Below, one piece after another: positions 7,114-22,178 of a stretch of DNA of 64,000 nt; within the stretch, counting starts at the first letter, position 1, and each line of letters begins with the position of its first letter. The DNA is from Selenomonas bovis DSM 23594 (GTDB lineage Bacteria > Bacillota > Negativicutes > Selenomonadales > Selenomonadaceae): contig NZ_KB908379.1 of the NCBI RefSeq assembly GCF_000381005.1, forward strand, positions 124,001 to 188,000, in the 5' to 3' direction. The notes beneath the pieces were generated by a model that was not told where the DNA came from, made no database searches, and saw only the letters and a program-made list of their open reading frames with translations. Both the position numbers and the translations under genes were made by a program.

Positions 7114-8784
7114 TCAACGCCGCAGTTCCCGCTCGATGACAGCGCCCGCACGCCGCGCGATATCCTGGGGACTGCGCAGGCAGAGGAACGCGGTGCCGAA
7201 AATCTCCCGCGCCGCCTCCTGCGTCGCCTCCTCGGGAAAGACGCTGTTGACGAGGCCGACGATGCGGACGCCCGCGCGGCGCAGGGCACGGCAGCCAGCC
7301 GCCGCGTCGCGCACAGCCGCCTTTCCCATATACGCCTGCGCGAGCGTCCGCCCCTCGGGCAAGAGGCCGAAGGCATCGCCGGGATGCGCGTCCGTGAGAC
7401 AGAGGACGAGCTGCCGCCTGCCTGCGGGCAGCAGCGGCCGCAGCGCACGCAGCGCGAGCCCGTCGCGGTTCCAGCCGCGCGCCTCGTAGGCAAAGATGCC
7501 ATCCGCCTGCCGCGCGCCGAACGCCTTGAGCACCGTCAGCGCCGTCACGCGTTCGACGCTCGCGAACGACCAGACCTGCACACGCAACCCCGCGCGCATG
7601 AGGCCCTCCGCGAGCGTATACGCCTGAGCGGCAATCAACGCCTGCTGTGACTCGCGGGAGGCGGACGCATCGAGCAGCAGCGTCACATCAAAGTCGCTGC
7701 GGGGCCGCTCCTCGCTGCTCGCGAACAGACGCCCGTCGAGTTCGCACGCCCCGCGCCACGCCCAAGCGCTCGTGAACCTTCCCGTCCGCGCGGGAACCAA
7801 GAGCGGCTGCCGCCATACAGCAAGCGTATTTCTGACCTGCGCCGCGAGCTTGCGCGCTGCTGTGCGGTAGACCGCGCGGTGCGCCTGATAAAACGACGTG
7901 TTCAGAGCGCGAGCCGCCTGCCCCGCGCCTGCCCGCGCGTAAAAAATATGCGTGCGCTGATGCGCTCCCACGCAGATCTCTTCCTCGAACCGCGCGCGCT
8001 GCCCCTCAGGGAAATACGGCGCGCCGAACGAGGCAAGCACGCGGCGCCAATCGCCGCCCGCGCGCAGGCGCAGCCCCCGCTGCCCCTCAGCCCCCGCCGT
8101 GCCCACATCCGTGCCGCTGCCGCCCGTGCGGCGCGGTGTGTCATCCTGCACGCGCCGCACGGGCAGCAGACGACGCAGCACGGCATGGAGCCACGCGGGC
8201 AATGCGATATGCATGGCCTGCCGCAGATGATTCGTCCAGCGGAAGACAAAATAATGGCGCAGCACCTCGTCCATCCGGCGGATCAGTAACGCCGTATCGC
8301 GCTCCGGCGGCAGAGAAAGCGCCGCGTAAAGCCGCCTGTCCCACGGATGGTAGAGACGCAGCGGCTCGCCGAGCACCTCACGGCAGCGCGCCGTCTTGAG
8401 CGTCTGCACGACGCCTGCCTGCAGCATGCGCTGCTGCAGGGAGACATCCACCGCCCGCAGATCGCACAGATACCGCCGCGCATGCGCCTCGCGCAGTTGC
8501 GGCAGCGCCGGCGAGCAGCGCACGGCCTGCGGATAGACGGCAGACTCCAGCGCGAGCCAGCAAAGGTCCGTAAACGTATCGACGAGCAACGAGCTGCCAA
8601 GCGACGCAAGATAATCACGCAGGGCCGCCGCGTCATAAAAGCGATGCGTAAAGCCGACAATGGCATTGAGATATGCATCCGGCGTCCCGTCCACATGGAA
8701 CGCAAGGAACGCGGGCGCAAAATCATAGGCCCCCGCCGCCGTCCACACCTGGTTCTCCGCCCGGCGCCGATTCCTGCTCCGCAT
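7114..8784 (-). CDS. VWA (CoxE/NorD-like) protein, partner of the upstream MoxR ATPase
   Basis: A 556 aa protein with a C-terminal von Willebrand A domain. A MIDAS motif DxSxS is visible as DASAS (372-376), with a later TDAHPGD. The N-terminal half (1-360) is not recognised and is rich in Arg and Ala. VWA proteins paired with MoxR ATPases (NorQ/NorD, CbbQ/CbbO) act as remodelling or metal-insertion machines for metalloenzymes. The gene lies 94 bases downstream of the MoxR gene, in the same direction. Start ATG 8784 has GGAGGG 7 bases upstream. The role in assembling the adjacent nitrogenase-like complex is inference from position. Confidence 0.8.
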   Translation of the reverse strand: MRSRNRRRAENQVWTAAGAYDFAPAFLAFHVDGTPDAYLNAIVGFTHRFYDAAALRDYLASLGSSLLVDTFTDLCWLALESAVYPQAVRCSPALPQLREAHARRYLCDLRAVDVSLQQRMLQAGVVQTLKTARCREVLGEPLRLYHPWDRRLYAALSLPPERDTALLIRRMDEVLRHYFVFRWTNHLRQAMHIALPAWLHAVLRRLLPVRRVQDDTPRRTGGSGTDVGTAGAEGQRGLRLRAGGDWRRVLASFGAPYFPEGQRARFEEEICVGAHQRTHIFYARAGAGQAARALNTSFYQAHRAVYRTAARKLAAQVRNTLAVWRQPLLVPARTGRFTSAWAWRGACELDGRLFASSEERPRSDFDVTLLLDASASRESQQALIAAQAYTLAEGLMRAGLRVQVWSFASVERVTALTVLKAFGARQADGIFAYEARGWNRDGLALRALRPLLPAGRRQLVLCLTDAHPGDAFGLLPEGRTLAQAYMGKAAVRDAAAGCRALRRAGVRIVGLVNSVFPEEATQEAAREIFGTAFLCLRSPQDIARRAGAVIERELRR

Positions 8785-8878
8785 CTTTCATCCCTCCTTG
8801 CACCACCGGCATCGCTCTACGAAAAATATGTCTGCGAGAAAAGGCAGCGAGCTATCATTCCCCGCCACGCATCAAACC

Positions 8879-9781
8879 CTACGCAAAAAACAGCTGCGCG
8901 GACGTCTCCTGCGTCACATACAGCGCCAGGACATCTCCCGCAAGCTCCCGTTCCTCTGCCTCGATGCACTTGTCGATGAGCCCCATCGTGAGCGCCCGCC
9001 ACGGCGCCACGCCGCGCGCGATGAGACGCACCGCGGCCAGGAGGCCGCGCAGATCCACCGCCCTGCTCGATATCTCGCCCGCACGGCTCTTCTCCGTAAG
9101 CGCGAGAAAAAGTGCGACGAGCACCTCCCTCCCCTCGTTGCTGAGCTGCGGCAGCGCATCACCAAGCAGTGCCGCGAGCCCCGTCTCATCGAACGGCGGC
9201 AGGCGCAGCACGAGGAAACGCGAGGCCAGCGCCTCGTTGAGTTCGCGCGTCCCCGCATATCCCTCGTTCATCGTTGCGAGGAACCGCGCGGCAGGATGTA
9301 CCGCGAGTTGCCCGCTGCCCGGTACCTCGAGCAATCGCCGGTGATCAAGCAGCGAATGGAGCACCGCGAGCGCCTCGTTGCGCGCCATGTTGATCTCGTC
9401 GAACACGCAGAACCCGCCGACTGCCGCGCTCTCATAGACAGGGCCGGGGCGGAACTGCACCTCGCCGGCACGGAAGGTATCCGTACCGATGAGATAGGCG
9501 GCGTCCGTATTGATGTGCAAGGAAACATTGAACATCGGGCGGCCGAACGCTGCCGCCAGATTCTCCGCAAGCACATTCTTCCCCGTCGCCTTCGGTCCGA
9601 CGAGCAGCAGATGCTCCCCCGCGAGCAGCGCCGCCACCGCGGCCTCGAAAATCTCCCTGCCATGATAGCGGTACACAGGACTCGGCAGTGCGCGCGTCCC
9701 TGTCCAGGGATACTCGTTGCGCCACGAGGCAAGATCGCGCCGCAGCTCCGCGCCAAGTGTAGCCTCCAGCCACTCTTCCAT
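8879..9781 (-). CDS. MoxR-family AAA+ ATPase (NorQ/CbbQ-like)
   Basis: A 300 aa AAA+ ATPase. The Walker A region is GPKATGKN (62-69) and Walker B is VFDEIN (126-131). A sensor-1-like ATMNEGY and an Arg-rich region follow. The Walker A ends in Asn, where Thr or Ser is usual; this is odd and may alter nucleotide handling. MoxR ATPases work with VWA proteins to mature or activate metal enzymes, and the VWA partner is the next gene. The gene is transcribed away from the NifH-like gene, with 238 bases between the two starts. Start ATG 9781 has GGAAGGAG just upstream. Confidence 0.82.
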   Translation of the reverse strand: MEEWLEATLGAELRRDLASWRNEYPWTGTRALPSPVYRYHGREIFEAAVAALLAGEHLLLVGPKATGKNVLAENLAAAFGRPMFNVSLHINTDAAYLIGTDTFRAGEVQFRPGPVYESAAVGGFCVFDEINMARNEALAVLHSLLDHRRLLEVPGSGQLAVHPAARFLATMNEGYAGTRELNEALASRFLVLRLPPFDETGLAALLGDALPQLSNEGREVLVALFLALTEKSRAGEISSRAVDLRGLLAAVRLIARGVAPWRALTMGLIDKCIEAEERELAGDVLALYVTQETSAQLFFA

Positions 9782-9958
9782 ACCATCGCTCCTTCCTCAT
9801 TGTCTCTTTCTCTTTTCGCGAAAACAACGCAAAATCCTTTTTTCGTTTCTTTCTTTTCTTCGTTCCGTGCCATACATCTCTAAAACCAAGGCACGTACAC
9901 CACAGACAACGTCATACATTGCCTCCTCGATATTGTACTTTTTTCTTATTCCCTGCGT

Positions 9959-9987
9959 TTGCTTTTTTTTCAGCGTCAACGTATAAT
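9959..9987 (+). promoter_or_regulatory. Candidate promoter of the nitrogenase-like/hyp gene cluster
   Basis: TATAAT at 9982-9987, with TTGCTT at 9959-9964 and a 17-base spacer. It lies 32 bases ahead of the NifH-like start codon, which has AAGGAG at about 10006. The -35 is weak, so an activator may be needed. The rest of the 9782-10019 divergent gap is T-rich on the plus strand, with no clear operator. Confidence 0.5.
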
Positions 9988-10019
9988 TAAGAAGAATATT
10001 TTGACAAGGAGTCATCACT

Positions 10020-10784
10020 ATGCAGAAAATCGCCATTTACGGCAAGGGCGGCATCGGCAAATCGACGCTCACGAGCCACCTTGCCGCTGCGTTCGCGCGG
10101 CTCGGCAAGCGCGTCATCCAGATCGGCTGCGATCCGAAGGCTGACTCGACCTCCAACCTGCTGGGCGGCCAGCCGCTCACCTCGGTCATGGGCTACCTGC
10201 GGGAACACGACGAGCCGCCGCAGGACCTCGCAGCGATCTCCCGCACGGGCTTCGGCGGCGTGCTCTGCATCGAGACGGGCGGGCCGACGCCGGGGCTCGG
10301 CTGCGCGGGCCGCGGCATCATCGCGACGTTCGACCTGCTCGAGGATCTCTCGCTCTTCGAGACATTCGCGCCGGACGTCGTACTCTACGACGTGCTCGGC
10401 GATGTCGTCTGCGGTGGCTTCGCCGCGCCGATACGCGAGGGCTACGCGGAGGATGTGCTCATCGTGACGTCAGGCGAAAAGATGGCGCTCTACGCGGCGG
10501 GAAATATCGCCGACGCAGTCGAGAACTTCCGCGACCGCGGCTACGCGCGCGTGCGCGGCATCCTCTTCAACCGCCGCAACGTTCCGGACGAGGAGGAGAA
10601 AGTCCGCGCGTTCGCCGCGGCGCGCTCGCTGCCCATCCTCGCGGATTTTCCGCGCAGCGACGCCATCAACCGCGCGGAGGAGGAAGGGCGCACCGTCATC
10701 GAGGCAGCGCCGCAGCTCCCCATCAGCGAGAAATTCCTCGCGCTCGCGCGGTCATTGCTCACCAGCGAGCCGCAGGAGGCATGA
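10020..10784 (+). CDS. NifH-like nitrogenase reductase (Fe protein homologue)
   Basis: A 254 aa P-loop ATPase of the NifH/BchL/CfbC family. These homodimers hold one [4Fe-4S] cluster and pass electrons to a NifDK-like partner with ATP hydrolysis. Visible are Walker A GKGGIGKS (8-15), CDPKADST (37-44), the cluster ligands Cys95 (GLGCAGRG) and Cys131 (VVCGGFA), and DVLGD (125-129). It is shorter than true NifH (about 275-295 aa). All residues for redox function appear intact. It is the first gene of the rightward cluster and is followed by a NifD/NifK-like pair. Which nitrogenase-like subgroup it belongs to needs a phylogeny. Confidence 0.92.
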
Positions 10785-10904
10785 TCCGAGGCAGCAGACA
10801 GCCGCACAGCGCCCGCTGCGCTTGGAAAAGAACAGACCGCCGCTGCCGACTGCCAGAAGGAGCTTCCCCACCGCCAGAACCGGCATCAGGAAAGGAGCCG
10901 CACC

Positions 10905-12227
10905 ATGATTGACACACGCGCAGGTGCAGAGCCTGCCGCCTTTTCTCGTACGGCGGCGGAGCTTGCCGCAGCGGGACCCGCGGGGATTCCCGCGGAGCTC
11001 ACGACGAGCGGCCACCTCATCTACAACTCTCCCGCCGCGCTCGATTTCAACTCGCCGGGCGCGCAGGGCTTCGGCGTCAAGCGCGCAGGGCTCAGCGTAC
11101 CCGGCTCCATCATGCTGCTCATCTCACCGCCGTGCTGCGGCCGCAATACAGCGGCGCTCTCCGGCCCCGGCCGCTACGGGGAACGCTTCGCGTTCTACGA
11201 GATGGACGAACGTGACATCGTGACGGGCCGCCACCTCGCGCGCATCCCAGAGGCCGCCACCGCATTCGTCGCGAGCCGCCGCGAGCCGCCGTCTGCCGTC
11301 ATGCTCTGCTGCACCTGCGCGGATGCACTGCTCGGCACCGATATGGAGCGCGTCGCCCGCAAGGCGGAGGCGCGCGTCCATCTGCCCGTGCGCCCTTGCT
11401 ATATGTACGCGCTCACACGCGAGAGCGTCCACCCGCCGATGGTACAAGTGCGCGAGGCCATCTACAGCCTGCTCGCCCCGCGCCCGAAGGTCGCGACGAG
11501 CGTGAACCTGCTCGGCAGCTTCGCACCCTGGGCGGAAACATCGGAGCTCTACGCGCTGCTGCGCGGCTCCGGCGTGAAACAGATCCGCGAGATCGGCCGC
11601 TGCCGCACATTCGCGGAGTTTTCCGCTATGGCGGAGGCGAATGTCAACCTCGTACTCGCGGAGGAGGCGCAGGCCGCGGCCGCGCTGCTCGCAAAAAAAC
11701 TCCGCATCCCCTTCGTCGGTCTGCGACGCTTCTACGCGCCCGGCCGCATCCATCACCAATATCAGGCGCTCTCCCGCGCGCTCGGCGTCACACTTGACGA
11801 TGCGCCGCTTTACGAGCGCGCCAAAAGCCGCCTCGCGGCACTCCGTGAGGCGCTCGCGGGGCGCCGCGTCCGCCTCGCCGTCGGCAGCCGACTGAACGCA
11901 GATCCCTTCGAGCTCGCGCTCGTGCTCAGCAGCGCGGGCTTTACCGTTACGAAAATCTTCTCCACCGTGCAGCCGCAGGATCTCTTCTTCCTGCGCGCGT
12001 TCGCCGATTGCTCGCCTCTGACGCGCATCTACTCGAATCTCTCGCCGACGATGGCCGCATTCCCGGATGATGAGGACGCACCCGATCTCGTGCTCGGCGC
12101 GGACGCACACTTCTACTATCCCTCGCTCCCCTGCATTGCCTGGAACAGCGAGGAACAGCCATTCGGCTATGACGCGCTGCTGCGCCTCACGGATGCGCTC
12201 CTCGAAAAGCTCGGAGGTGTCTCATGA
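10905..12227 (+). CDS. NifD/NifE-like nitrogenase component 1 subunit (first pair)
   Basis: A 440 aa protein that I place in the nitrogenase component 1 (NifD/E/K/N-like) superfamily. PPCCGRN (Cys77/78) lies where NifD has its P-cluster Cys88. CCTCADALLGTD (Cys135/136/138) resembles the STCxxxLIGDD region of NifD Cys154. The Cys62-equivalent of NifD is not apparent, and no clear FeMo-cofactor Cys/His ligand pair was found. This points to a different cluster arrangement. The AGGAAAGGAG site before ATG 10905 is strong. The stop overlaps the next ATG by 4 bases, so a stoichiometric pair is likely. Substrate unknown. Confidence 0.78.
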   Translation: MIDTRAGAEPAAFSRTAAELAAAGPAGIPAELTTSGHLIYNSPAALDFNSPGAQGFGVKRAGLSVPGSIMLLISPPCCGRNTAALSGPGRYGERFAFYEMDERDIVTGRHLARIPEAATAFVASRREPPSAVMLCCTCADALLGTDMERVARKAEARVHLPVRPCYMYALTRESVHPPMVQVREAIYSLLAPRPKVATSVNLLGSFAPWAETSELYALLRGSGVKQIREIGRCRTFAEFSAMAEANVNLVLAEEAQAAAALLAKKLRIPFVGLRRFYAPGRIHHQYQALSRALGVTLDDAPLYERAKSRLAALREALAGRRVRLAVGSRLNADPFELALVLSSAGFTVTKIFSTVQPQDLFFLRAFADCSPLTRIYSNLSPTMAAFPDDEDAPDLVLGADAHFYYPSLPCIAWNSEEQPFGYDALLRLTDALLEKLGGVS

Positions 12228-13324
12228 AAGGTCTGCGTCTCTTCCTGCCGCCCTTCGCTCCGGATGACGCGGGAGCGGCCTCGGTCCTCTTCCCGCTCGG
12301 CGGGCTCGTCGTCATCGTGGACGCCGGCGGCTGCGCGGGAAATATCTGCGGCTTCGATGAGCCGCGCGCACGCGACGATGGGCCACGCAGCGTCGTCGTG
12401 AGCGCCGCTCTGCGCGACATGGACGCGATTCTCGGCCGCGACGACCAGCTCGTCGCGAAAATCGCCCGCGCTGTGCAGTCGTTCCGCACGAGCGGACGAT
12501 CCTTTCCTTTTATCGCGCTCATCGGCACACCGGTGCCCGCCATCATCGGCACGGACTACCGCGCGCTCTGCCGCCTCACGGAGCAGGCGACGGGTGTGCC
12601 GACCATCGCCGTAGCGACGGACGGCACGCATCTCTATGATGTTGGCGCTTCCGCTGCCTATCTCGCGCTGCTGCAACGATTCGCAAACCTGCCTGCCACC
12701 GCGTCCCGTATCGCGCGCGGCACACTCGGCGTGCTCGGCGCAACGCCCATGGATCTTGCGGACACGACGGCGGTGCGGCTGCGCGCGCGCCTCAAGGCGC
12801 AGGGCTGGCAACACCTCCGCTGCTACGGACTCGACCACCGCCTCTCGCAGTACGCCGCGGCCGCGGAAAATGAGGAAAATCTCGTCATCGCCCCCGCCGG
12901 TCTCGCGGCCGCGCAGTGGCTCGAAAAAACGTTTGGCACGCCATACCGCATCGGTTTTCCTCTCATCGATGAGGACCTCGCTGCCAGCCTTGCGGACAGC
13001 GCGCTGCCCGCGCAGGCGCAGCGCATCCTCATCGTGCACCAGCAGTGCAAAGCGAACGCGCTGCGCAGATCGCTCGCGCGGCGTTATCCACATGCCGCCA
13101 TCACCTGCGCGACGTATTTTACGCGCTGTGGCGCTTACAGCCTGCCGCAGGACATCCAGCTGCGCGAGGAGGACGACCTCCCCCGCTGCGCCATAGAGGG
13201 CCATTACGATCTCATCATCGCCGACGCGATCTACCGGCGGGCGCTGCCCGCGTACCGCGGCGCCTTTTTCGACTTGCCGCACTTCGCGGCGAGCGGCCGC
13301 CTCGCGCCCGCGGACGCTCAGTAG
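12224..13324 (+). CDS. NifK/NifN-like nitrogenase component 1 subunit (first pair)
   Basis: A 366 aa partner of the preceding gene, with which it overlaps by ATGA. The N-terminal stretch with FPLGGLVVIVD, GGCAGNIC (Cys37, Cys42), FDEPR and DAILGRDD (68-74) is shared with the NifK-like protein at 19609, so the two are paralogues. The position matching the third P-cluster Cys of NifK carries Thr in IGTPVPAIIGTD (100-111). The subunit is much shorter than NifK (about 520 aa). Few cysteines remain, so any bridging cluster must be ligated differently or held mostly by the D-like partner. Function is unknown. Confidence 0.75.
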   Translation: MKGLRLFLPPFAPDDAGAASVLFPLGGLVVIVDAGGCAGNICGFDEPRARDDGPRSVVVSAALRDMDAILGRDDQLVAKIARAVQSFRTSGRSFPFIALIGTPVPAIIGTDYRALCRLTEQATGVPTIAVATDGTHLYDVGASAAYLALLQRFANLPATASRIARGTLGVLGATPMDLADTTAVRLRARLKAQGWQHLRCYGLDHRLSQYAAAAENEENLVIAPAGLAAAQWLEKTFGTPYRIGFPLIDEDLAASLADSALPAQAQRILIVHQQCKANALRRSLARRYPHAAITCATYFTRCGAYSLPQDIQLREEDDLPRCAIEGHYDLIIADAIYRRALPAYRGAFFDLPHFAASGRLAPADAQ

Positions 13325-13362
13325 TTTCTTAATCGCGTCGCTTTTCAGAAAGAGGTGCTCCC

Positions 13363-15723
13363 GTGTCCCTTTACCACAGCAAGATTTACGGCATCGTGCA
13401 GGGTGTCGGCTTCCGCCCGTTCGTCAGCCGCCTCGCCGCAAAGTTCGGCATCCGCGGCAGCGTCGCGAACAAAGGCCCCTATGTCGAGATTTTCGCGCAG
13501 GGGAGCGACGTCGCCTGCCAGAAGTTCCTGCATGCCATCGAAAACGAGCCGCCGGAGCGCGCCGTCATCCTGCGTGTGGAGACGCAGGTACTCGCCGCCT
13601 GCGCTGCGGGCATGGCATTTTCCTCATTCTCCATCATCGAAAGCGCGAAGGAGCGCGGCGATATCTTTGTATCGCCGGACATCGCGACGTGTGAAAAGTG
13701 CCGCGCGGAACTCTACGATCCGACGAACCGGCGCTACCTGCACCCTTTCATCAACTGCACGGCCTGCGGTCCGCGCCTCACCATCCTCGAGGCCATGCCC
13801 TACGACCGCGAGCGCACGAGCATGCGGGAATTCCCCATGTGCGGCGCCTGCGCCGCCGAGTACCACTCGCCCGCTTCGCGGCGCTACGACGCGCAGCCTG
13901 TCTGCTGCAATGACTGCGGCCCTGAGGTCTACCTGTTGGACGCGCAGGAGATACGCGGCGGCGCAGCCATCACGCGGGCACGCGAAGTGCTCGCGCGCGG
14001 CGGCTGCATCGCCGTCAAAGGCATCGGCGGCTTCCACCTCGCCTGCGACGCGACGAACGAAGCGGCGGTCGCGGCGCTGCGCAAGGCCAAGCACCGCCCG
14101 CGCAAACCGTTCGCCGTCATGGCACGCGACCTCACCGCCGTCCGCCGCGCCTGCCGCATCGAGGACGCGGCGCAGGAGGCGATGCTCACAGGGCACCAGA
14201 AGCCCATCCTGCTGCTGCCGCGCCGTGAGGAGGCGCAGCTCGCGCCCTCCGTCGCGCCGGGCAATCCGCGCGTCGGCATGGTGCTCCCCTACGCGCCGCT
14301 CCAGATGCTGCTCTTTTCCTATCCCGACGGGCTCGACAGCGCGATGCCTGCGTACCTCGTGATGACGAGCGGCAACCCGTCAGGCGCGCCGATCTGCCAT
14401 ACGGACGAGGAAGCGCGCGCGGCCCTCACGCCCATGACGGATCTCATCCTCACGCACAACCGGCGCATCCGCCTGCGCGCGGACGACAGCGTCATGGACT
14501 GGCACGCGGGCCATCCCTACCTCATCCGCCGCAGCCGCGGGCTCGCGCCGCTGCCCTTCTTCGTCTCCGCCGCAACTGGCGGAAAGCGCAGACAGGTGCT
14601 CGCCATCGGCGGCGAGCTCAAGAACAGCTTTACGCTCGGCACGGGGGAGCTTTTCTACCCCTCGCCCTATATCGGCGACATGAGCGATCTGCGCACGGTG
14701 CTCGCACTCAAAGACAGCGTGCACCTCCTCGCCTCCCTGCTCGAGATCACGCCGGAGGTCGTCGCCTGCGACCTCCATCCGCGCTACAATACGACTGCAA
14801 TTGCCCATGAGCTCGGCCTGCCCGTCTTCCCCGTCCAGCACCACTACGCGCATATCCTCTCCTGCCTTGCCGAGCACGATGTGTGCGGCCCCGTGCTCGG
14901 CGTAGCGCTTGACGGCACGGGCTACGGCACGGACGGCACTGTCTGGGGCGGCGAGATCCTGCGCGCGGACTACGCGGGATTTACGCGGCTCGGCTCCATC
15001 GAGCCGTTCACGCAGGCGGGCGGCGACAAGGCCCCGCGCGAGGGCTGGCGCATTGCGGCCGCACTGCTGCAGCCGGCCTTTCCCGACAGCGACGGAGGAG
15101 AAACCGATTGGCAGACCCTCGCCGACTGCGCCGTCCACGAGCTGCGGCTTTGCACGGAGCAGGAATTCGCCGCACAGGCGTTCCTGCTCCGCCGCCAGCT
15201 CAACTGCGTGACATCGACGAGCGCAGGACGCCTCTTCGATGCTGTGAGCGCGCTGCTCGGCCTTTGCACGCACTCAACCTTCGAGGGCGAGGCGGCAATG
15301 GCACTCGAGTTCGCGGCAGAGCGCTTCGAGGCAAAGGGAGGGACGGCCGCGCCGCTCTGTCCCCCGCTGCGCGATGCGGCGGACGGACGGTTCCTGCTGC
15401 CGACGCAAGCGCTCTTCCTCACGCTCCTCGCGCGCAGACGAGAGGGCGTGCCATCCGCGCACCTCGCCTATCTCTTCCACGCGAGTCTCGCCGCGCTCAT
15501 CTGCGCGGGCTGCGAGGAAGGGCGGCGGCGCACGAGGCTTTCCACCGTCGCCCTCTCAGGCGGCGTCTTCCAGAACATCCTGCTGCTGCGCCTCACGGAG
15601 CAGGCACTGCGCGCGGCAGGCTTCGACGTCCTCACGCACAGCCTCGTGCCGCCCAATGACGGCGGCATCAGTCTCGGTCAGGCCATCGCCGCCATGTACG
15701 CGCTCGGAGAGGAAAACGCCTAG
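13363..15723 (+). CDS. hypF: Carbamoyltransferase HypF
   Basis: A 786 aa enzyme that transfers carbamoyl phosphate to the C-terminal Cys of HypE, the first step in making the cyanide ligands of the [NiFe]-hydrogenase Fe(CN)2CO group. Domains in order: acylphosphatase with VQGVGFRPF (12-20); zinc fingers at Cys110/113/132/135 and Cys160/163/182/185; a YrdC-like domain; and a C-terminal Kae1-like domain with HHYAHILSC. Start is GTG 13363, with an AGAGG site. It follows the NifK-like gene by 38 bases, so it looks cotranscribed with it. All domains appear complete. Confidence 0.95.
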   Translation: MSLYHSKIYGIVQGVGFRPFVSRLAAKFGIRGSVANKGPYVEIFAQGSDVACQKFLHAIENEPPERAVILRVETQVLAACAAGMAFSSFSIIESAKERGDIFVSPDIATCEKCRAELYDPTNRRYLHPFINCTACGPRLTILEAMPYDRERTSMREFPMCGACAAEYHSPASRRYDAQPVCCNDCGPEVYLLDAQEIRGGAAITRAREVLARGGCIAVKGIGGFHLACDATNEAAVAALRKAKHRPRKPFAVMARDLTAVRRACRIEDAAQEAMLTGHQKPILLLPRREEAQLAPSVAPGNPRVGMVLPYAPLQMLLFSYPDGLDSAMPAYLVMTSGNPSGAPICHTDEEARAALTPMTDLILTHNRRIRLRADDSVMDWHAGHPYLIRRSRGLAPLPFFVSAATGGKRRQVLAIGGELKNSFTLGTGELFYPSPYIGDMSDLRTVLALKDSVHLLASLLEITPEVVACDLHPRYNTTAIAHELGLPVFPVQHHYAHILSCLAEHDVCGPVLGVALDGTGYGTDGTVWGGEILRADYAGFTRLGSIEPFTQAGGDKAPREGWRIAAALLQPAFPDSDGGETDWQTLADCAVHELRLCTEQEFAAQAFLLRRQLNCVTSTSAGRLFDAVSALLGLCTHSTFEGEAAMALEFAAERFEAKGGTAAPLCPPLRDAADGRFLLPTQALFLTLLARRREGVPSAHLAYLFHASLAALICAGCEEGRRRTRLSTVALSGGVFQNILLLRLTEQALRAAGFDVLTHSLVPPNDGGISLGQAIAAMYALGEENA

Positions 15724-15792
15724 GCCGCCCACTCCACGCGCCGGTGCTGTCATGGTTATCTGTGTAATAATTTAAGAAAGAAGTGTGATTTC

Positions 15793-16020
15793 ATGTGTGT
15801 CGGAATCCCAGCAAAGGTCGTCAGCGTCGCGCACGGAACGGCGATCGTCGATGCCTCTGGCGCGCGCCGCGAGGTGTCCGCGGAACTGCTCGCTGCGCTC
15901 GATCCCGGTGATTATGTGATGGTGCACGCGGGGCTTGCCATCGCGAAGATTACCTCGGACGATGAGGCGGAATCCGCGGCCCTCCTCGCAGACACCGCCT
16001 CCGACGGAGGCCAGCGATGA
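15793..16020 (+). CDS. hypC: Hydrogenase maturation chaperone HypC/HybG family
   Basis: A 75 aa OB-fold chaperone. The N-terminal MCVGIP places the essential Cys at position 2, which coordinates the Fe(CN)2CO moiety together with HypD. DPGDYVMVHAGLAIAKI is the usual conserved core. In hydrogenase systems HypC hands the iron group to the large-subunit precursor. No such subunit is encoded nearby, so the client here may be a nitrogenase-like protein. Its stop overlaps hypD by 4 bases. Confidence 0.95.
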   Translation: MCVGIPAKVVSVAHGTAIVDASGARREVSAELLAALDPGDYVMVHAGLAIAKITSDDEAESAALLADTASDGGQR

Positions 16021-17114
16021 GCGCGGCCGCACAGGCGCGCCGCGCGCGAGATGCCGCGCGCGAGATCGTCACCTCCTACCGCGGGCCGCGTCTGCGCATC
16101 ATGGAAGTCTGCGGCACGCATACGCATGAGATTTTCCGCCTCGGCCTGCGCGCGCTCCTGCCGCCCGGCATCGAGCTCATCTCCGGTCCCGGCTGCCCCG
16201 TCTGCGTGACGCCTGTCTCCTTCATCGACGAGGCCTGCTATCTCGCGCGGGAATGCGGCGTCACGCTCTGTACTTTCGGCGACCTCCTGCGCGTCCCTGG
16301 CACGGCAGGGAGCCTCGCCGACGCGCGCAGCCAGGGCGCGCGCGTCGAGATTGTCTACACGCCGCTCGACGCCGTCGCCTATGCCGCGGCCCATCCTGCG
16401 GAGGAGGTCGTCTTCCTCTCCGTGGGCTTCGAGACGACGACGCCAGCAAGCGCCCTCGCCATCAAAAAAGCCGCCGCGCAAACGCTGACGAATTTCTCCC
16501 TGCTCGCTGCCAACAAGACCATGGACGCCGCCTATCTCGCGATGCGTGATAGCTGCGATGCCTATCTCTACCCTGGTCACGTCTGCGCCATCACGGGGGC
16601 GCGCGTGCCGCGCGCGCTCACGTCACGCGGCATCAGCGGCGTCGTCGCGGGCTTTACGGCGAGCGAGCTGCTCACGGCGCTCGCCGTCATCCTCCGCCGG
16701 AGCAGCGCGGCGCCCTTTTTCGTCAACTGTTATCCGCGTGTCGTGACAGAGGAGGGCAGCCCGGCCGCACGCCAGCTGCTCGAGACATATTTCACGCCCG
16801 TCGACGCCGAGTGGCGCGGCCTCGGTGTCCTGCCGCAGAGCGGCCTCGTGCCCGCGCCGGCCTACGCGGAGTTCGACGCGCGCAGGCGCTATACCATCCC
16901 GCCGCAGGAGGGCCGCACCAACCCTGCCTGCCGCTGCGGCGACATCCTGCGCGGCGCCTGCACGCCCGCCGACTGTCCGCTCTACGGCAAAACCTGCACG
17001 CCGGAGCACCCGGTCGGCGCCTGCATGGTCTCGCGCGAAGGCACCTGCGCCGCCTGGTACCAGTACCGCGGCACAAGTGCCGCATCCTCAGGAAAGGAAG
17101 ACCTCCATGGATAA
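16017..17114 (+). CDS. hypD: Hydrogenase maturation protein HypD
   Basis: A 365 aa iron-sulfur protein that, with HypC, is the scaffold on which Fe(CN)2CO is built. Cys32 in CGTHTHEI and Cys60/Cys63 in GPGCPVC are the conserved redox and iron-binding residues. A C-terminal Cys-rich region (CRCGDIL, CTPADCPLYGKTC) holds the [4Fe-4S] cluster. It is full length. It overlaps hypC by 4 bases and hypE by 8, so the three are translationally coupled. Confidence 0.96.
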   Translation: MSAAAQARRARDAAREIVTSYRGPRLRIMEVCGTHTHEIFRLGLRALLPPGIELISGPGCPVCVTPVSFIDEACYLARECGVTLCTFGDLLRVPGTAGSLADARSQGARVEIVYTPLDAVAYAAAHPAEEVVFLSVGFETTTPASALAIKKAAAQTLTNFSLLAANKTMDAAYLAMRDSCDAYLYPGHVCAITGARVPRALTSRGISGVVAGFTASELLTALAVILRRSSAAPFFVNCYPRVVTEEGSPAARQLLETYFTPVDAEWRGLGVLPQSGLVPAPAYAEFDARRRYTIPPQEGRTNPACRCGDILRGACTPADCPLYGKTCTPEHPVGACMVSREGTCAAWYQYRGTSAASSGKEDLHG

Positions 17115-18123
17115 CGAACGCATCACGCTCGCGCATGGCGCCGGCGGTCAGCAGACCGCCGCGCTCATCGAGCGCCTCTTTGCCCGCCATTTCAAGAATC
17201 CCGACCTCACGGCGGACGACGCCGCCATCCTCTCGCTCGACGGCACACGCATCGCCATGACGACGGACGGCTTCATCGTCTCGCCATGGCAGTTCCCCGG
17301 CGGCAACATCGGCAAGCTCTCCATCTGCGGCACGGTCAACGATCTCTCCTGCATGGGCGCGCGGCCGCGCTATCTCACCTGCGCCTTCCAGATCGAGGAG
17401 GGCTTCTCCCTGCACGACCTCGATGTCATCGCCGCCTCGATGGCGGAAACAGCGAAAGCAGCAGGCGTCACCATCGTCGCAGGCGACACGAAGGTCGCCG
17501 GTCGCGGCCAAGTGGACGGTCTCTTCATCACGACGACGGGCGTCGGCGAGCTCCTGCCGGGCGTCAGGACGGGCGGTGCGCTCGCGCGGCCCGGCGATGA
17601 CATCATCGTGACGGGCGACGTCGGCCGCCACGGCAGCGCCATCCTGCTCGCGCGCGGCAGCTACGGCATCGACGCCGCGATCACGAGCGACTGCGCGCCG
17701 CTCTGGCCGATGGTTGAGGCACTCTTCGCCGCGCTGCCGCAGAAGGACGCCGTCCACACCATCCGCGATGCCACGCGCGGCGGCGTCGGCACCGTGCTCT
17801 ACGAAATCGCGCGGGAGAGCAGCGTCGGCATCGAACTCGCGGAGACGGACATTCCCTGCGCGCCCGCCGTGCGCGGCCTCACGGGACTGCTCGGCCTCAA
17901 TCCGCTCTACCTCGCCTGCGAGGGCCGTCTCGTGCTCTTTTGCACGCCTGAGGCAACCGCGAGCGTCCTGGATGCTCTGCACCAGACCGCGGACGGCGCG
18001 AGCGCCGCGCGTATCGGCCGGGTTGCCGCCGCGCCTGCCTGCCGGGTCACCCTCACCACCGAGCTCGGCACGACCGTTCTCCTGCCGCCGCCGAGCGGCG
18101 AGCTCCTGCCCCGCATCTGCTGA
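17107..18123 (+). CDS. hypE: Carbamoyl dehydratase HypE
   Basis: A 338 aa PurM/AIR-synthetase-like enzyme that dehydrates the S-carbamoyl group from HypF to a thiocyanate, which is then passed to HypC-HypD. The chain ends in PRIC, the conserved terminal Cys that carries the carbamoyl group. ATP-site features include DDAAIL near the N-terminus and DATRGGVGT. Start ATG 17107 has GGAAAGGAAG upstream and overlaps hypD. The last residues are intact, so the pathway for cyanide synthesis appears functional. Confidence 0.95.
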   Translation: MDNERITLAHGAGGQQTAALIERLFARHFKNPDLTADDAAILSLDGTRIAMTTDGFIVSPWQFPGGNIGKLSICGTVNDLSCMGARPRYLTCAFQIEEGFSLHDLDVIAASMAETAKAAGVTIVAGDTKVAGRGQVDGLFITTTGVGELLPGVRTGGALARPGDDIIVTGDVGRHGSAILLARGSYGIDAAITSDCAPLWPMVEALFAALPQKDAVHTIRDATRGGVGTVLYEIARESSVGIELAETDIPCAPAVRGLTGLLGLNPLYLACEGRLVLFCTPEATASVLDALHQTADGASAARIGRVAAAPACRVTLTTELGTTVLLPPPSGELLPRIC

Positions 18124-18198
18124 CGCACGTTGCGCGCGCAAGCGTCACAGCGTGCGACCTGCACTCCCCCCTGCCATACAGCCGCCGCAATTCTCACT

Positions 18199-18247
18199 GC
18201 CGATTCTGCGCGTCGTTCTCTCCAAGAGACAGCCGCGCAGAATCGGC
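18199..18247 (+). other. Perfect 14-bp inverted repeat between hypE and the second NifD-like gene
   Basis: Arms GCCGATTCTGCGCG (18199-18212) and its exact complement (18234-18247) enclose a 21-base loop that itself can pair (TCTC/GAGA). No T-run follows, so it is not a classical terminator. It may be an mRNA processing or stability element inside the operon. Confidence 0.6.
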
Positions 18248-18277
18248 GCTGTCTTCACCTGTCAAGAGGATGATTCC

Positions 18278-19621
18278 ATGCTCCAACGCATCCAGCCAGC
18301 AAAGAAGCTGCCTGCCCTCCCCATCGCGGAGGCCGCCTATCCCGCGCCGTTCGCGCCGGGACTCGAATACTCCCCCGCCGCGCGCGGCACCTGGAACATC
18401 GTCCACACGGGCATGCTCCTGCCGGAGTCTCATCAGATCTACATCTGCGCGGCCGGCTGCCTGCGCGGCGTCGTGCTGACCGCGGCGGAGATGGGAGACG
18501 CCTATCGCCGCCGCTTCTCTGCGCTCGAGCTCCGCGAGGACGACCTCTACCGCACGGACCATGAGACGTTTCTCATCGAGGGCATCACGGACATCCTCCG
18601 CCGCCTGCCGCGTCTGCCGCGCGCCGTCCTCGTCTTCACGGCCTGCGTGCACCATTTCCTCGGCTGCAACCTCCGCTACGTCTACCAGACGCTGCGCGAG
18701 CGCTTTCCCAGCGTCGCCTTTGCCGAATGCGTCATGGATCCCATCCGCCAGACGAAAAGCCTCACGCCGGAGGAACGCGAGCGACGCGAAATCTACCGCC
18801 TGCTCCCCTCCGACAGGGAAAAGAACCGCCATCTCGTCAACCTCATCGGCAGCAACCTCGCCCTCACGGCCAAGAGCGATATCAAGGAGCTCGCACACGC
18901 CTGCGGCCGCGAGCTCCTCGACCTCACCGAGTGCCATAGTTACGACGATTTCCTGCGCATGGGCGAAGCCAGCGAGAACCTCTATACAAACCCCTTCACG
19001 CACGTCGCGGCCCGCGACTTGTTGCGGCGCCTCGGGCAGGATGCGCTCTTCCTGCCGCAGGTCTGGCGCTACGAGGAGATCTGCGACGCGCTCACGCAGC
19101 TCGCCGCTTTCCTCGGCGGCAGCTGCCCGGATCTGCGCCCGCGCATCGCCACCTGCGAGCTCGCGCTCAACGCGCTCCACGGCCAGATCGGCGCGCAGCC
19201 CATCGCCATTGATTTCACCTTCACCTTCCTGCCCATGAGCCTCGCGCGCCTGCTCATCTCCCACGGCTTCCATGTCACGGAGATCTACGCCGATGCCATC
19301 GCCAGGGAGGACGAGGCGAACTTCCGCTGGCTCCAACACCACGCACCGGACATCCTGCTCTATCCGACGAAGCATCCCGCCATGCGCCGCAAGCCGCGCG
19401 CGCAGGCGGACGGCGCGCCGCCCCTGCTCGCGCTCGGGCAGAAGGCTGCCTATTTCACCGGTACGCGCTATTTCCTGCCCGCCGTCGAGGGCGGCGGCCA
19501 CTACGGACTCGAGGCCATCTCCTGGCTCGCCGCCGCCATGAGCCGCGCTGCCCTGCTGCCGCAGGACACTGAGCAGATCATCCGCCGCAAGGGATGGGGA
19601 GGTCCGTCATGTCTCTCATGA
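18278..19621 (+). CDS. NifD/NifE-like nitrogenase component 1 subunit (second pair)
   Basis: A 447 aa member of the nitrogenase component 1 superfamily. Candidate cluster ligands are Cys57 and Cys61 (YICAAGCLRG) and Cys123/Cys130 (TACVHHFLGC), positions that resemble the NifD/NifE P-cluster-type cysteines. HTGMLLPESHQ and FTFTFLPMS are other conserved-looking patches. It differs clearly from the first NifD-like protein, so the two pairs probably have different jobs, for example catalysis and cofactor scaffold, as NifDK and NifEN do. I chose ATG 18278, with AAGAGGA 8 bases upstream. A longer in-frame reading runs back into hypE and is rejected. Confidence 0.75.
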   Translation: MLQRIQPAKKLPALPIAEAAYPAPFAPGLEYSPAARGTWNIVHTGMLLPESHQIYICAAGCLRGVVLTAAEMGDAYRRRFSALELREDDLYRTDHETFLIEGITDILRRLPRLPRAVLVFTACVHHFLGCNLRYVYQTLRERFPSVAFAECVMDPIRQTKSLTPEERERREIYRLLPSDREKNRHLVNLIGSNLALTAKSDIKELAHACGRELLDLTECHSYDDFLRMGEASENLYTNPFTHVAARDLLRRLGQDALFLPQVWRYEEICDALTQLAAFLGGSCPDLRPRIATCELALNALHGQIGAQPIAIDFTFTFLPMSLARLLISHGFHVTEIYADAIAREDEANFRWLQHHAPDILLYPTKHPAMRRKPRAQADGAPPLLALGQKAAYFTGTRYFLPAVEGGGHYGLEAISWLAAAMSRAALLPQDTEQIIRRKGWGGPSCLS

Positions 19622-21006
19622 AAAAAAGCGCGCAAAAAGCGCGCGCCCAGGCCTGCTGCCTGCTGCCAACCTACTCCGCGGACACGTTCGGCGTCTGCTC
19701 CGCACTCTTCGAGCTCGGCGGCATGGTCGTCATCCACGACCCGTCCGGATGCAACTCCACCTACACCACGCATGACGAGCCGCGCTGGTATGATACGGAC
19801 AGCCTCATCTTCATCTCCGCGATGAACGAATACGACGCCATCCTCGGACGCGATGACCGCCTCCTGCAGAACCTCATCGATACCGTGCGTGCGGAACGCC
19901 CCCGCTTCCTCTGCCTCATCCCCTCGCAGATCGCCTACCTCATCGCGACCGACCTCCAGGCCATCGCGCGCGCGGTCGAGCGTACGACCGGCGTACCGAG
20001 CTTCACTCTGCCGACGAACTCCATGCACGATGCCGAGCGCGGCATCTACCTCGCGCTGGAGGAAATCGCGCGGCGGATTCCACTAAGCTCCGCACGCACA
20101 GGGGGCAGTCGTCTGCGCGTCAACGTGCTCGGCGCCACGCCGCTCGACTTCCCCCTCGCGGGAACGCGTCAGTCTCTCGCCGACTTCCTCGTGCAAGCAG
20201 ACGCTACGCTCCAATCCTGCTGGGCCATGGACTGCACCTATGAGGAACTCTGCACGGCAGCAGCAGCCGACGTGAGCCTCGTCATATCCTACGGCGGCCT
20301 CGGCGCCGCGCGCGTACTCCAAGAGCGCTTCGGCATCCCCTACGTCATCGGCGCGCCCATCGGCCCACTGAAAGCGCCACTAGCCGATGCCTTGCACGAG
20401 GCAGCCCATCACGCCGTGCGTCGCGCATCCTTCCGCCGCTCAGGTTCAGACACCCCCGCGCATCTCTCCATGACTACCACGATTACCACGCCGCCAAACG
20501 TACAGCAGATCCTCAACACAAAGAAGTATCCCGCCGACAAGCCTGCAGCGTCTGAAAAGGAATACACCTGGCCGCAGTCCCTCCTTCCCCTCATGCATGC
20601 AGGTGGCAGTAGCGCCCCAAACGCTCCCGCCACCAGCATCATCGGCGAAGGCATCTTCGCAGCCTCCCTCGCTGCCGCGCTCCACGCAGCAGACGGCAGG
20701 AACGCGCGCCTCATCGTGCCCACCGCCCATGCCCCCCAGCTCCTGCCGCCAGGGACGATCACCTGTCCCAGCGAGACAGCCCTCATCGCAATGCTCGCCG
20801 ATACAGCAGTGCTGCTGGCAGATCCGCTCTATCAGGCCCTCTGCCCGCCAGATCTGCCGTTCCTCCCGCTGCCGCACACCGCCTGCTCCGGCAGGCTCTA
20901 CGAAGCGCAGCAGCGCAACCTCCTCGACGACGCCGCGTTCTCCGCGCTTCTCAAGGAACTCCGGTACAAAGCCCCGTTACAAAACTACGGAAAGGAATCT
21001 CCATGA
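19609..21006 (+). CDS. NifK/NifN-like nitrogenase component 1 subunit (second pair)
   Basis: A 465 aa partner of the preceding subunit, overlapping it by 13 bases. ELGGMVVIHD, GCNSTYTTHDEPRW (Cys48) and DAILGRDD (76-83) match the first NifK-like protein. Extra cysteines are Cys16/17 and Cys30. After about residue 285 comes a Thr/Pro/Ser-rich stretch of about 60 residues with lower GC than its neighbours, then a final domain with TACSGRLYEAQ. This makes it about 100 residues longer than the first K-like protein. Start ATG 19609 fits GGGGAGG 6 bases upstream better than ATG 19618. Confidence 0.74.
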   Translation: MSLMKKSAQKARAQACCLLPTYSADTFGVCSALFELGGMVVIHDPSGCNSTYTTHDEPRWYDTDSLIFISAMNEYDAILGRDDRLLQNLIDTVRAERPRFLCLIPSQIAYLIATDLQAIARAVERTTGVPSFTLPTNSMHDAERGIYLALEEIARRIPLSSARTGGSRLRVNVLGATPLDFPLAGTRQSLADFLVQADATLQSCWAMDCTYEELCTAAAADVSLVISYGGLGAARVLQERFGIPYVIGAPIGPLKAPLADALHEAAHHAVRRASFRRSGSDTPAHLSMTTTITTPPNVQQILNTKKYPADKPAASEKEYTWPQSLLPLMHAGGSSAPNAPATSIIGEGIFAASLAAALHAADGRNARLIVPTAHAPQLLPPGTITCPSETALIAMLADTAVLLADPLYQALCPPDLPFLPLPHTACSGRLYEAQQRNLLDDAAFSALLKELRYKAPLQNYGKESP

Positions 21007-21305
21007 TCTTCACCATCGCCCAGACATTCTTCTATGCACTCTGGCAGGCCTTCGGCTACAGCATGTCCACGCTCGGCCTGCACCGCGCAGGTCTGCTGCG
21101 CCGCCAGCGTCGCCTGCGCGCCTTCCTCTGGCTCCTCGCCATCAACCTCTGCGGCACCCTCACCTTCGGTGCCGCCGCCTGGCAAAGCGCCTCCCAGCCC
21201 GCCGCCATCCTCCTCATCTGCGTCGGCATCCTCATCTTCTGCGTCTGTCATCTGTGGCTGCTCTGGAAACACATGCGGCAAAGCGAGCATGAAAAGAGCC
21301 GCTGA
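21003..21305 (+). CDS. Small membrane protein at the end of the nitrogenase-like cluster
   Basis: A 100 aa protein with two clear hydrophobic segments (about 40-60 and 66-88) and a possible weaker one at 3-22. A basic loop (LLRRQRRLR) precedes the first clear segment, and the tail is charged. It overlaps the NifK-like gene by ATGA, so it belongs to the same transcript. I recognise no family. It could anchor the soluble complex to the membrane or serve an electron donor; both are guesses. Confidence 0.65.
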   Translation: MIFTIAQTFFYALWQAFGYSMSTLGLHRAGLLRRQRRLRAFLWLLAINLCGTLTFGAAAWQSASQPAAILLICVGILIFCVCHLWLLWKHMRQSEHEKSR

Positions 21306-21362
21306 TTACAGTGTCCATCAGGATACAAACTTATCACACATCAAAAATCTCCGGAGGCTTCT

Positions 21363-22178
21363 ATGAAAATCAACATCCCCCAGCAATATTTCTCTAAACT
21401 CATGCGCGCCGTCGTCGAGTTCGAGATGATCGAGGACGGCGATCATATCCTCATCGGCGTCTCAGGCGGAAAGGACAGTATCTTCCTCTGCTACGCGCTC
21501 GCCATCCTGCGCGAGCGGCTGAGGAAGGACTTCCGCCTGTCTGCGCTGACCATCAATCCAATGTTCCCGGATACGCCGTTCGATACGGCGCGGATCCGCA
21601 CGTTCCTCGCGGGACTTGAGATTCCCTATGATGTCATCGATGTCGATATCGCGGGGGCGATTGAGGCGCAGGGCGGCAAGACGCCTTGCTATACCTGCGC
21701 CTTTTTCCGCCGCGGCGCGATGAACCGCTACGCGAAGGAACACGGCATGAACAAGATTGCCTACGCGCATCACAACGACGACGCCGTGGAAACCTTCCTC
21801 ATGAGCCTGCTCTATTCCGGGCAGCTCACGACATTCACGCCTGTGACGTATCTCGACCGCACGGATCTCAAGGTCATCCGCCCGCTGATCTATTTCCGCG
21901 AGAGCGAGACACGGGCAGCGGTGCGCTATCACGGGTTCGCACCGGTGCCCTCGCCCTGCCCGCACGATGGGCACACGATCCGCCAGGAGGTCAAAGAGCT
22001 CATCGCGCGGCTCTCGCCGGAGATTCCCGACCTCTACGAGCACCTCGCCTCCGGCATGCGCGAGGGCGCGCTCGGCGAGCTCTGGCCCGCGACCAAGACG
22101 CGCGATGAGATGAAGGAAACGTATCTGCGCTATATGGGAAAGAGCGCTGCTGCACACGCAGACAGCCGCAAAAAGTGA
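21363..22178 (+). CDS. TtcA-like PP-loop ATPase
   Basis: A 271 aa ATP-pyrophosphatase-loop protein of the TtcA family, whose best-known members thiolate C32 of tRNA. SGGKDS (34-39) is the PP-loop. Cys109/Cys112 (CYTC) form the CxxC pair, and a third Cys199 (SPCPHDG) fits the Fe-S ligand pattern of TtcA. It starts 57 bases after the membrane-protein gene, with CGGAGG before ATG 21363 and no promoter visible, so it may share the operon. It may simply be a tRNA enzyme next door, or a sulfur-handling enzyme for the nitrogenase-like complex. Confidence 0.82.
   Translation: MKINIPQQYFSKLMRAVVEFEMIEDGDHILIGVSGGKDSIFLCYALAILRERLRKDFRLSALTINPMFPDTPFDTARIRTFLAGLEIPYDVIDVDIAGAIEAQGGKTPCYTCAFFRRGAMNRYAKEHGMNKIAYAHHNDDAVETFLMSLLYSGQLTTFTPVTYLDRTDLKVIRPLIYFRESETRAAVRYHGFAPVPSPCPHDGHTIRQEVKELIARLSPEIPDLYEHLASGMREGALGELWPATKTRDEMKETYLRYMGKSAAAHADSRKK

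Follow-up and report, generated by a model that had tools for sequence, protein, structure and literature searches.

The window analysed here is a stretch of 64,000 nucleotides from Selenomonas bovis (contig NZ_KB908379.1; genome of 75 contigs and 2.69 Mb), and it carries an island in which genes for nitrogenase-like proteins enclose hypF, hypC, hypD and hypE. NifH1, D1, K1, HypF, HypC, HypD, HypE, D2, K2 and a small protein are encoded on a single strand between 10020 and 21305, with short gaps or overlaps (the pairs D1/K1, HypC/D, HypD/E, D2/K2 and K2/small protein overlap), and the second D/K pair has no NifH of its own. As judged from gene content and comparison of genomes, the island probably takes the place of HydG in the assembly of the H-cluster of [FeFe] hydrogenase, with a probability of about 0.75; the replacement itself is well supported by genomics, and its chemistry, as given below, is what we infer. 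A preliminary description of this DNA, made from the letters alone, had given the gene content, order and overlaps together with a NifH-like reductase carrying its redox residues, and all of this agrees with the Pfam and NCBIfam matches and coordinates, as follows:

10020..10784, plus strand: NifH1, NifH-like reductase (PF00142, 285.9 bits), with the P-loop and both [4Fe-4S] cysteines
10905..12227, plus strand: D1, NifD/NifE-like subunit (PF00148, 94.6 bits)
12224..13324, plus strand: K1, NifK/NifN-like subunit (PF00148, 59.6 bits)
13363..15723, plus strand: HypF carbamoyltransferase (five HypF Pfam families)
15793..16020, plus strand: HypC (TIGR00074, 64.8 bits; cut-off 48)
16017..17114, plus strand: HypD, the second copy of the genome, of the island-type clade (PF01924, 420 bits)
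17107..18123, plus strand: HypE, ending in PRIC (AIRS domains)
18278..19621, plus strand: D2, second NifD/NifE-like subunit, with a C-terminal cysteine (PF00148, 33.8 bits)
19594..21006, plus strand: K2, second NifK/NifN-like subunit, alternative start 19618 (PF00148, 84.8 bits)
21003..21305, plus strand: small protein, labelled as a membrane protein by the preliminary description only; no family over cut-off; in some Selenomonadaceae only

Conservation of the island in relatives

In the first search, covering 60 genomes (59 relatives besides the window's own), D1 had matches in 26; 13 of these were of the D1 type, i.e., the window's own and 12 others at 48–80% identity, and the remaining matches were distant (about 22–36% identity). 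The stretches of the 12 other carriers have the same island order as the window, with exceptions: in G032, G026 and G024 the order is divided over contigs, and the HypD found on separate contigs in G032 and G024 is of the island type according to the tree. When GTDB species genomes were scanned with the D1 alignment, 483 relatives came up, of which the best 80 make up the set of loci used further; the named locus nearest to the window is that of a Selenomonas bovis metagenome-assembled genome (MAG) with a D1 80% identical. Taken together, the first set of 13 and a second set of 50, with three genomes in both, give 60 distinct carriers.

Among the 63 loci with at least 7.8 kb after the D1 start, the order D1-K1-HypF-C-D-E is kept in 60, the exceptions being L066, L082 and L137. 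This conserved order is not chance, and the relatives have the co-occurrence of D/K genes with hypFCDE that the preliminary description had looked to, rather than a separation of the hyp genes from the D/K genes. Of the 80 loci, 65 have D2 (upstream in 26 and downstream in 39) and 61 have K2; two NifH genes occur in 41 of the 65 loci with D2, and a NifH lies directly 5' of D2 in 35. In 13 of the 78 intact D1 frames the length is over 650 amino acids, which we read as a putative D1-K1 fusion. The carriers belong to what we take to be selenomonads (Selenomonadaceae), Megasphaera, Lachnospiraceae, clostridia, Coriobacteria, Lentisphaeria and one spirochaete, and they include Clostridium ljungdahlii and C. 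ragsdalei (L129 and L131). In the locus of a sheep-omasum Eubacterium MAG (L138:14286-15131), a protein similar to damage-control phosphatases (ARMT1-like domain, below the NCBIfam cut-off) is encoded between HypC and HypD.

HydG and the other [FeFe]-hydrogenase maturation genes in carriers

It has been described that HydG makes the Fe(CO)2(CN)(Cys) synthon, which is taken up by HydE and finished by HydF (PMC11736057). Our census of these proteins covered 80 genomes, i.e., 40 carriers (the whole first set of 13, plus 27 of the other 47) and 40 non-carriers out of the 47 in the 60-genome search. HydG (TIGR03955 over cut-off) was found in none of the 40 carriers and in 26 of the 40 non-carriers, with [FeFe] hydrogenase (PF02906) in 40 carriers and 36 non-carriers, HydE in 38 and 34, and HydF likewise in 38 and 34. 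Since HydE and HydF are each present in 95% of the carriers, gaps in the assemblies are an unlikely reason for the absence of HydG. In the window's genome, four matches to [FeFe] hydrogenase were found, and none to HydG over the cut-off; of five hydrogenase frames, one has all three H-cluster motifs (window's genome, L173) and the other four have two of three. The two groups are well separated by the D1 profile, whose best score in the 40 non-carriers was 61.7 bits, against scores of 611 to 767 for the seven carriers that were included, and no HydE type peculiar to carriers was found, as the HydE scores of carriers and non-carriers overlap.

By Fisher's exact test on the HydA-positive genomes, HydG in 0/40 carriers versus 26/36 non-carriers gives p = 1.7e-12, and within the window's family the values are 0/12 versus 12/18 (p = 3e-4), both with no correction for phylogeny. 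When one row was kept per genus of that family and the non-carriers of the window's genus were taken out, the result was 0/10 versus 12/14 (p = 7e-5). Deeper kinship is ignored in these tests, but the carriers are spread over the several groups named above.

Genes neighbouring the island in the 80 loci were clustered into families, and three of these recur widely, in 25, 21 and 20 loci. All members of the first (25/25) match the NCBIfam model TM1266 (E 1e-18 or better), while the second is HydF (21/21) and the third HydE (20/20), both with E 1e-60 or better; the next family, an ATP-binding cassette (ABC) transporter ATPase, occurs in 10 of the 80 loci, mostly away from the island. In total, hydE, hydF or TM1266 lies beside the island in 44 of the 80 loci. 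The fullest example is a Spirochaetaceae locus (L117), where a single strand reads TM1266-hydF-aspA-like-hydE-NifH2-D2-K2-NifH1-D1-K1-hypF-C-D-E and HydE overlaps NifH2. The third gene of that series is called aspA-like because its aspartate ammonia-lyase-like product scored 509, just under the subfamily cut-off of 510; aspartate ammonia-lyase is an established partner in hyd operons, where it supplies ammonium for the bridging ligand (PMC11736057). In another locus (L113), hydE sits between D1 and K1.

Several observations weigh against HydG replacement by the island and have to be set beside these results. No hyd gene was recognised at the island of the window, whose genome has HydE at contig C6 and HydF at C14, i.e., on contigs other than that of the island, and 36 of the 80 loci have none of hydE, hydF and TM1266 in the stretches covered. 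The census included 40 of the 60 carriers, which were chosen by similarity to the window with no completeness filter, and the non-carriers were at least 90% complete; two carriers each are without HydE (G017 and G070) and HydF (G017 and G064) over the cut-off, possibly because of incomplete genomes. Eight genomes (G001, G002, G003, G006, G015, G050, G055 and G057), four of them from the window's genus, have HydA, HydE and HydF and neither HydG nor D1, and G019 and G042 have HydA without HydG or HydF. In G008, HypD and HypE are missing from the island and NifH1 is missing beside D1. Finally, a HydG candidate was proposed in C. autoethanogenum on the basis of cysteine motifs (PMC9431212).

The eight genomes with HydA, HydE and HydF mean that a third route, a degenerate maturation or plain loss of HydG exists. 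They possibly hold a third way to the H-cluster, and in one stretch each around hydE/hydF of G001, G002, G006, G015 and G050 no obvious replacement was seen among the frames, which were not subjected to a family search.

Hyp and nitrogenase-like proteins of the island

The motifs of the four Hyp proteins are kept in the relatives, namely the acylphosphatase motif of HypF in 68 of 70, the MC start of HypC in 67 of 67 intact sequences, GPGCPVC of HypD in 65 of 65 and the PRIC tail of HypE in 63 of 65 (a separate HypF motif matched 0 of 70 and is uninformative). Because the motifs of HypE, HypD and HypC are kept, Fe(CN)2CO synthesis by the island set should be intact, as far as can be predicted from sequence. 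The window's genome has one [NiFe] large subunit, at contig C4, and two hypD genes, one of which lies beside this hydrogenase, together with hypC and hypE, and the other in the island. In the tree, the HypD proteins of the island group together (support 0.944) and are separate from the 11 that are hydrogenase-linked (support 1.0).

No match to the [NiFe] large subunit was found in 39 of the 60 distinct carriers, the second set being of unstated completeness, and 12 of the 13 carriers of the first set do have such a match, which in G005 is a 54-residue piece at a contig end. Among the 21 carriers with a match, it is N-terminal only in four, in a protein of about 358 residues, and in two clostridia it is weaker and in three pieces. 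Since the gene order is conserved, the HypD clade is separate and 39 of 60 carriers are without the large subunit, the hyp genes are part of the nitrogenase-like system and not a hydrogenase set parked nearby.

The two clostridia with the weak three-piece match are C. ljungdahlii and C. ragsdalei (G104 and G106), in which HypA/B were not found according to PMC9431212, and the [NiFe] hydrogenase of these species may be without normal maturation. In G008 (L044/L082), where the island is without HypD and HypE, the single HypD of the genome lies at the [NiFe] hydrogenase locus, which suggests that the Fe(CN)2CO module can be common to both systems.

NifH1 of the relatives (n = 76) keeps the P-loop in 76 and the cluster cysteines in 76 and 75 sequences. 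AlphaFold 2 models of D1 and D2 were obtained with predicted local distance difference test (pLDDT) values of 81.0 and 86.2. The best fold match of the D1 model was BchB (3aet_B; VIA Z 23.0, root-mean-square deviation (rmsd) 4.1, 376 aligned residues) and that of the D2 model a NifEN chain (9i0f_B; VIA Z 23.5, rmsd 4.4, 376 aligned), both tied with many others; among these, the Mar protein 9fmg_A matched the D1 model with Z 21.8, rmsd 4.0 and 387 aligned residues, and no Mar sequence was in our tree. By sequence, the closest PDB entry to D1 is NifE (E 3.2e-14), and the closest to K2 are NifE/NifEN and ChlB.

Residues were aligned with Sinorhizobium NifD, Pseudanabaena NifD and one BchN, using what we take to be the NifD and NifK numbers (Cys62, Cys88, Cys154, Cys275 and His442; Cys70 and Cys95). 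Cys78 and Cys138 of D1, as well as Cys61 and Cys123 of D2, align with NifD Cys88 and Cys154, and no counterpart of NifD Cys62, Cys275 or His442 is present in the aligned D1 or D2. The single cysteine of K1 and K2 aligns with NifK Cys95, and an Asp adjoins the position of NifK Cys70. As strict patterns for K1 and K2 matched 68 of 73 and 33 of 44 relatives, and a D2 motif 10 of 63, the cysteines were recounted on the alignments, where both of D1 are kept in 78 of 78 relatives, both of D2 in 63 of 63, K1 Cys37 and Asp14 in 73 of 73, and one cysteine and one Asp of K2 in 44 of 44. This pattern, together with the missing NifD residues, suggests that the D/K proteins may hold one [4Fe-4S] cluster on three cysteines, perhaps with the Asp, much as in dark-operative protochlorophyllide oxidoreductase (DPOR), and that they would have no site for the iron-molybdenum cofactor (FeMo-co). 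The DPOR cluster is known to use an Asp, and its three cysteines are on BchN. In addition, D2 has a cysteine within the last six residues in 59 of 63 relatives (about 19600-19621 in the window), reminiscent of a tail able to carry a metal unit or ligand.

A tree of 75 sequences was built with FastTree and included NifDK, BchNB and Sporomusa-type nitrogenase-like references, CfbD and Mar being left out. D1 and D2 are sisters (0.996), as are K1 and K2 (0.901), and they stand apart from the reference clades; therefore, the placement inside a known clade that would have spoken against the preliminary description was not seen among the references used. With these sister clades, the two D/K pairs look like a duplicated scaffold/finishing arrangement. 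A gene of L100 that was labelled NifH2 by its position groups with NifH1. The Sporomusa-type set is another NifH-D-K set (L181:7907-16038, on a Sporomusa termitida plasmid, and L054-L057), preceded by an iron ABC transporter and followed by an alpha/beta hydrolase. Hyp genes are absent from the stretch, and the NifH is 53% identical to NifH1; this set may have a role in reductive iron or siderophore release.

Outside the conserved unit, two divergent genes lie upstream of the island and one gene downstream:

7114-8784, minus strand: VWA-like gene, so labelled from the preliminary description and position only
8879-9781, minus strand: MoxR/AAA_5 (AAA_5, 92.8 bits)
21363..22178, plus strand: TtcA-like PP-loop ATPase (PF01171, 62.1 bits; TtcA model 159.6, cut-off 272)

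These three had been counted as parts of the island, which did not hold, as tblastn with them gave 0 matches in the 80 related loci (E 1e-6) and, at E 1e-4, 0 in the 12 other carrier stretches; having no match in relatives, they are taken as local neighbours. The small protein at 21003..21305 had a match in 3 of the 12 other carrier stretches. A chelatase (tetrapyrrole) role for the MoxR/VWA pair was considered and is unsupported, since the VWA-like protein matched no Pfam or NCBIfam family; the two genes are possibly an orphan MoxR-VWA pair.

Alternative explanations, proposed route and known systems

The idea that the Hyp genes mature the [NiFe] hydrogenase and have the D/K genes as neighbours by chance draws on the single [NiFe] hydrogenase of the window's genome and on the matches in 12 of the 13 first-set carriers. 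However, the hydrogenase in the window's genome has its own hypCDE at C4, and with the separate HypD clade and 39 of 60 carriers without the large subunit, we reject a service to [NiFe] hydrogenase and regard this explanation as hardly credible. It is unlikely, although easier to accept, that the island encodes a nitrogenase-like enzyme which has an Fe-CN-CO cofactor of its own, supplied by Hyp, and reduces some substrate, and that HydG is missing by coincidence of lineage: the Hyp genes inside the operon and the paralogous clades D1+D2 and K1+K2 fit with it, as the two D/K pairs could be a scaffold and an enzyme, like NifEN and NifDK. Such an enzyme leaves unexplained HydG in 0/40 carriers with HydA in 40/40, as well as the linkage to hydE, hydF and TM1266 including the hydE between D1 and K1, and beyond these three genes the next neighbour family is found in just 10 of the 80 loci.

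Somewhat less probable still is a division of labour, in which the island supplies a part of the HydG output (e.g., CO or a reduced iron unit) and a divergent, unrecognised radical S-adenosylmethionine (SAM) protein gives the rest. Atypical HydG candidates were indeed proposed in acetogens (PMC9431212), but the best HydG-model matches in the 40 carriers are at most 203 bits versus the cut-off of 312, which is within the range of second matches in HydG-bearing genomes (up to 220), and the listed match overlaps the HydE gene in G062, G066, G092, G104 and G106; in C. ljungdahlii (G104) this is the single HydG-model match.

HydG 0/40 with HydA 40/40, the linkage to hydE, hydF and TM1266, and the separation from [NiFe] hydrogenase are thus the reasons why we consider the island an alternative to HydG. 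The preliminary description had proposed a nitrogenase-like enzyme that uses or builds an Fe-cyanide/carbonyl centre. Building fits with the gene order in 60 of 63 loci, the own HypD clade and the carriers without [NiFe] large subunit, whereas use of the centre by the D/K enzyme itself is less likely: the client of Hyp and D/K is probably the H-cluster of [FeFe] hydrogenase with HydG missing.

In established Hyp chemistry, carbamoyl phosphate is turned into cyanide by HypF and HypE, and HypC and HypD assemble Fe(CN)2CO; nitrogenase is also known to reduce CO2 to CO. To hypothesize, the island HypF and HypE would make cyanide in this way, and HypC-HypD would assemble the Fe(CN)2CO unit, which would then be accepted and remodelled by a pair of paralogous nitrogenase-like complexes, in each of which an ATP-driven NifH would serve a D/K heterodimer bearing one P-cluster-like [4Fe-4S] cluster; D1K1 possibly acts first, as a NifEN-like scaffold, and D2K2 after it. 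Together they would yield an Fe-CO-CN species usable by HydE and HydF. As one Fe(CN)2CO has both cyanides of the [2Fe] site, what is lacking is more CO and a redistribution of CN, and a low-potential reduction of CO2 to CO at a nitrogenase-like site is one possible role. The products of HydG and Hyp differ by an exchange of CN/CO and a redox step, so that nitrogenase-like complexes, with their ATP-gated low-potential electrons, are natural candidates for bridging them. What we infer here is the D/K cluster, the passage of the unit from HypCD to D/K, which complex acts first, and the chemistry as a whole. Tentatively, and with the odds rather against it in this full form, there may be a second, independently evolved route to the H-cluster, in which tandem scaffold-like and finishing nitrogenase-like enzymes rework the CN and CO of Hyp-made Fe(CN)2CO before HydE and HydF; a hydrogenase from such a route could have a variant ligand set.

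Dos Santos et al. (2012) described a clade from Coprococcus catus and Dorea longicatena whose NifHEN-like genes come in two linked copies. The E-like subunit has two cysteines and the N-like subunit one, and an Asp was suggested as a ligand, as in DPOR; one sentence there links the clade to hydrogenase maturation proteins, with HydG, the [FeFe] type and Hyp unnamed in the sections available, and ABC transporters are mentioned beside nitrogenase-like genes (PMC3464626). The view of the preliminary description that nitrogenase-like systems centred on Hyp genes are not known therefore needs amending, since an association of this clade with hydrogenase maturation was in print in 2012. Di Leonardo et al. 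(2022) reported HydE, HydF and HypCDEF, which make Fe(CN)2CO, in C. ljungdahlii and C. ragsdalei, with HydG not found, and they discussed an atypical HydG or free diatomic ligands, with no settled explanation in the part of the article available (PMC9431212). The main text of a transposon-sequencing study of essential genes in C. autoethanogenum (PMC9004356) names none of the island genes, and the available part of PMC6873888 has nothing on them. Our literature search, with most subscription papers and bioRxiv preprints outside it, gave no paper that links HydG absence to nitrogenase-like genes. What is new here is that the island and HydG exclude each other, together with the joint operons, the separation from [NiFe] hydrogenase and hence a specific role.

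Our proposal joins two facts that are in print without explanation, namely organisms with [FeFe] hydrogenase and no recognised HydG (PMC9431212) and a nitrogenase-like clade with no role assigned to it (PMC3464626). If it is true, the H-cluster of many bacteria of the gut and rumen, and of gas-fermenting clostridia, is built by a route other than the textbook one, nitrogenase-like machines act on organometallic iron, an orphan nitrogenase-like clade gains a function, and hydrogen production in bacteria without HydG is explained. To our knowledge, these would be the first enzymes that remodel an Fe-CN-CO unit.

Compared with known systems, the island very probably belongs to the Coprococcus/Dorea family, with which it shares the linked double NifHEN-like copies, the 2+1 cysteines and the association with hydrogenase maturation (PMC3464626), a likeness drawn from the description and not from the sequences. 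With NifH-NifDK and NifH-NifEN it has in common a NifH with P-loop and cluster cysteines, two paralogous D/K pairs, the D/K fold and NifE as the closest PDB sequence to D1, but it differs by the lack of equivalents of NifD Cys62, Cys275 and His442 and by its separate clades; NifH1 reached 292.4 in the nitrogenase NCBIfam test (cut-off 394.35), and the best D/K score was 44.3 (NifE, cut-off 505.1). With DPOR (BchL-BchN-BchB) it shares BchB as the top fold match of the D1 model and a site of three cysteines and a possible Asp, although two of these cysteines are on D and one on K, unlike the three on BchN, and the island proteins are below the cut-offs of BchL, BchN and BchB; for NifH1, the BchL and BchX equivalog tests gave 195.4 versus 345.15 and 196.5 versus 331.2, and the CfbC family test gave 282.6 versus 402. 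The four proteins with kept motifs are the same as HypCDEF of [NiFe] maturation, and the differences are the separate HypD clade, the 39 of 60 carriers with no [NiFe] large subunit and the HypA/B reported absent in C. ljungdahlii (PMC9431212). In comparison with HydEFG maturation, the carriers have HydA (40/40), HydE and HydF (each 38/40), TM1266 in 25 of 80 loci and an aspA-like gene in L117, but no HydG (0/40), with nitrogenase-like and Hyp genes in its place; the island works like the HydG step and is not the HydEFG system itself.

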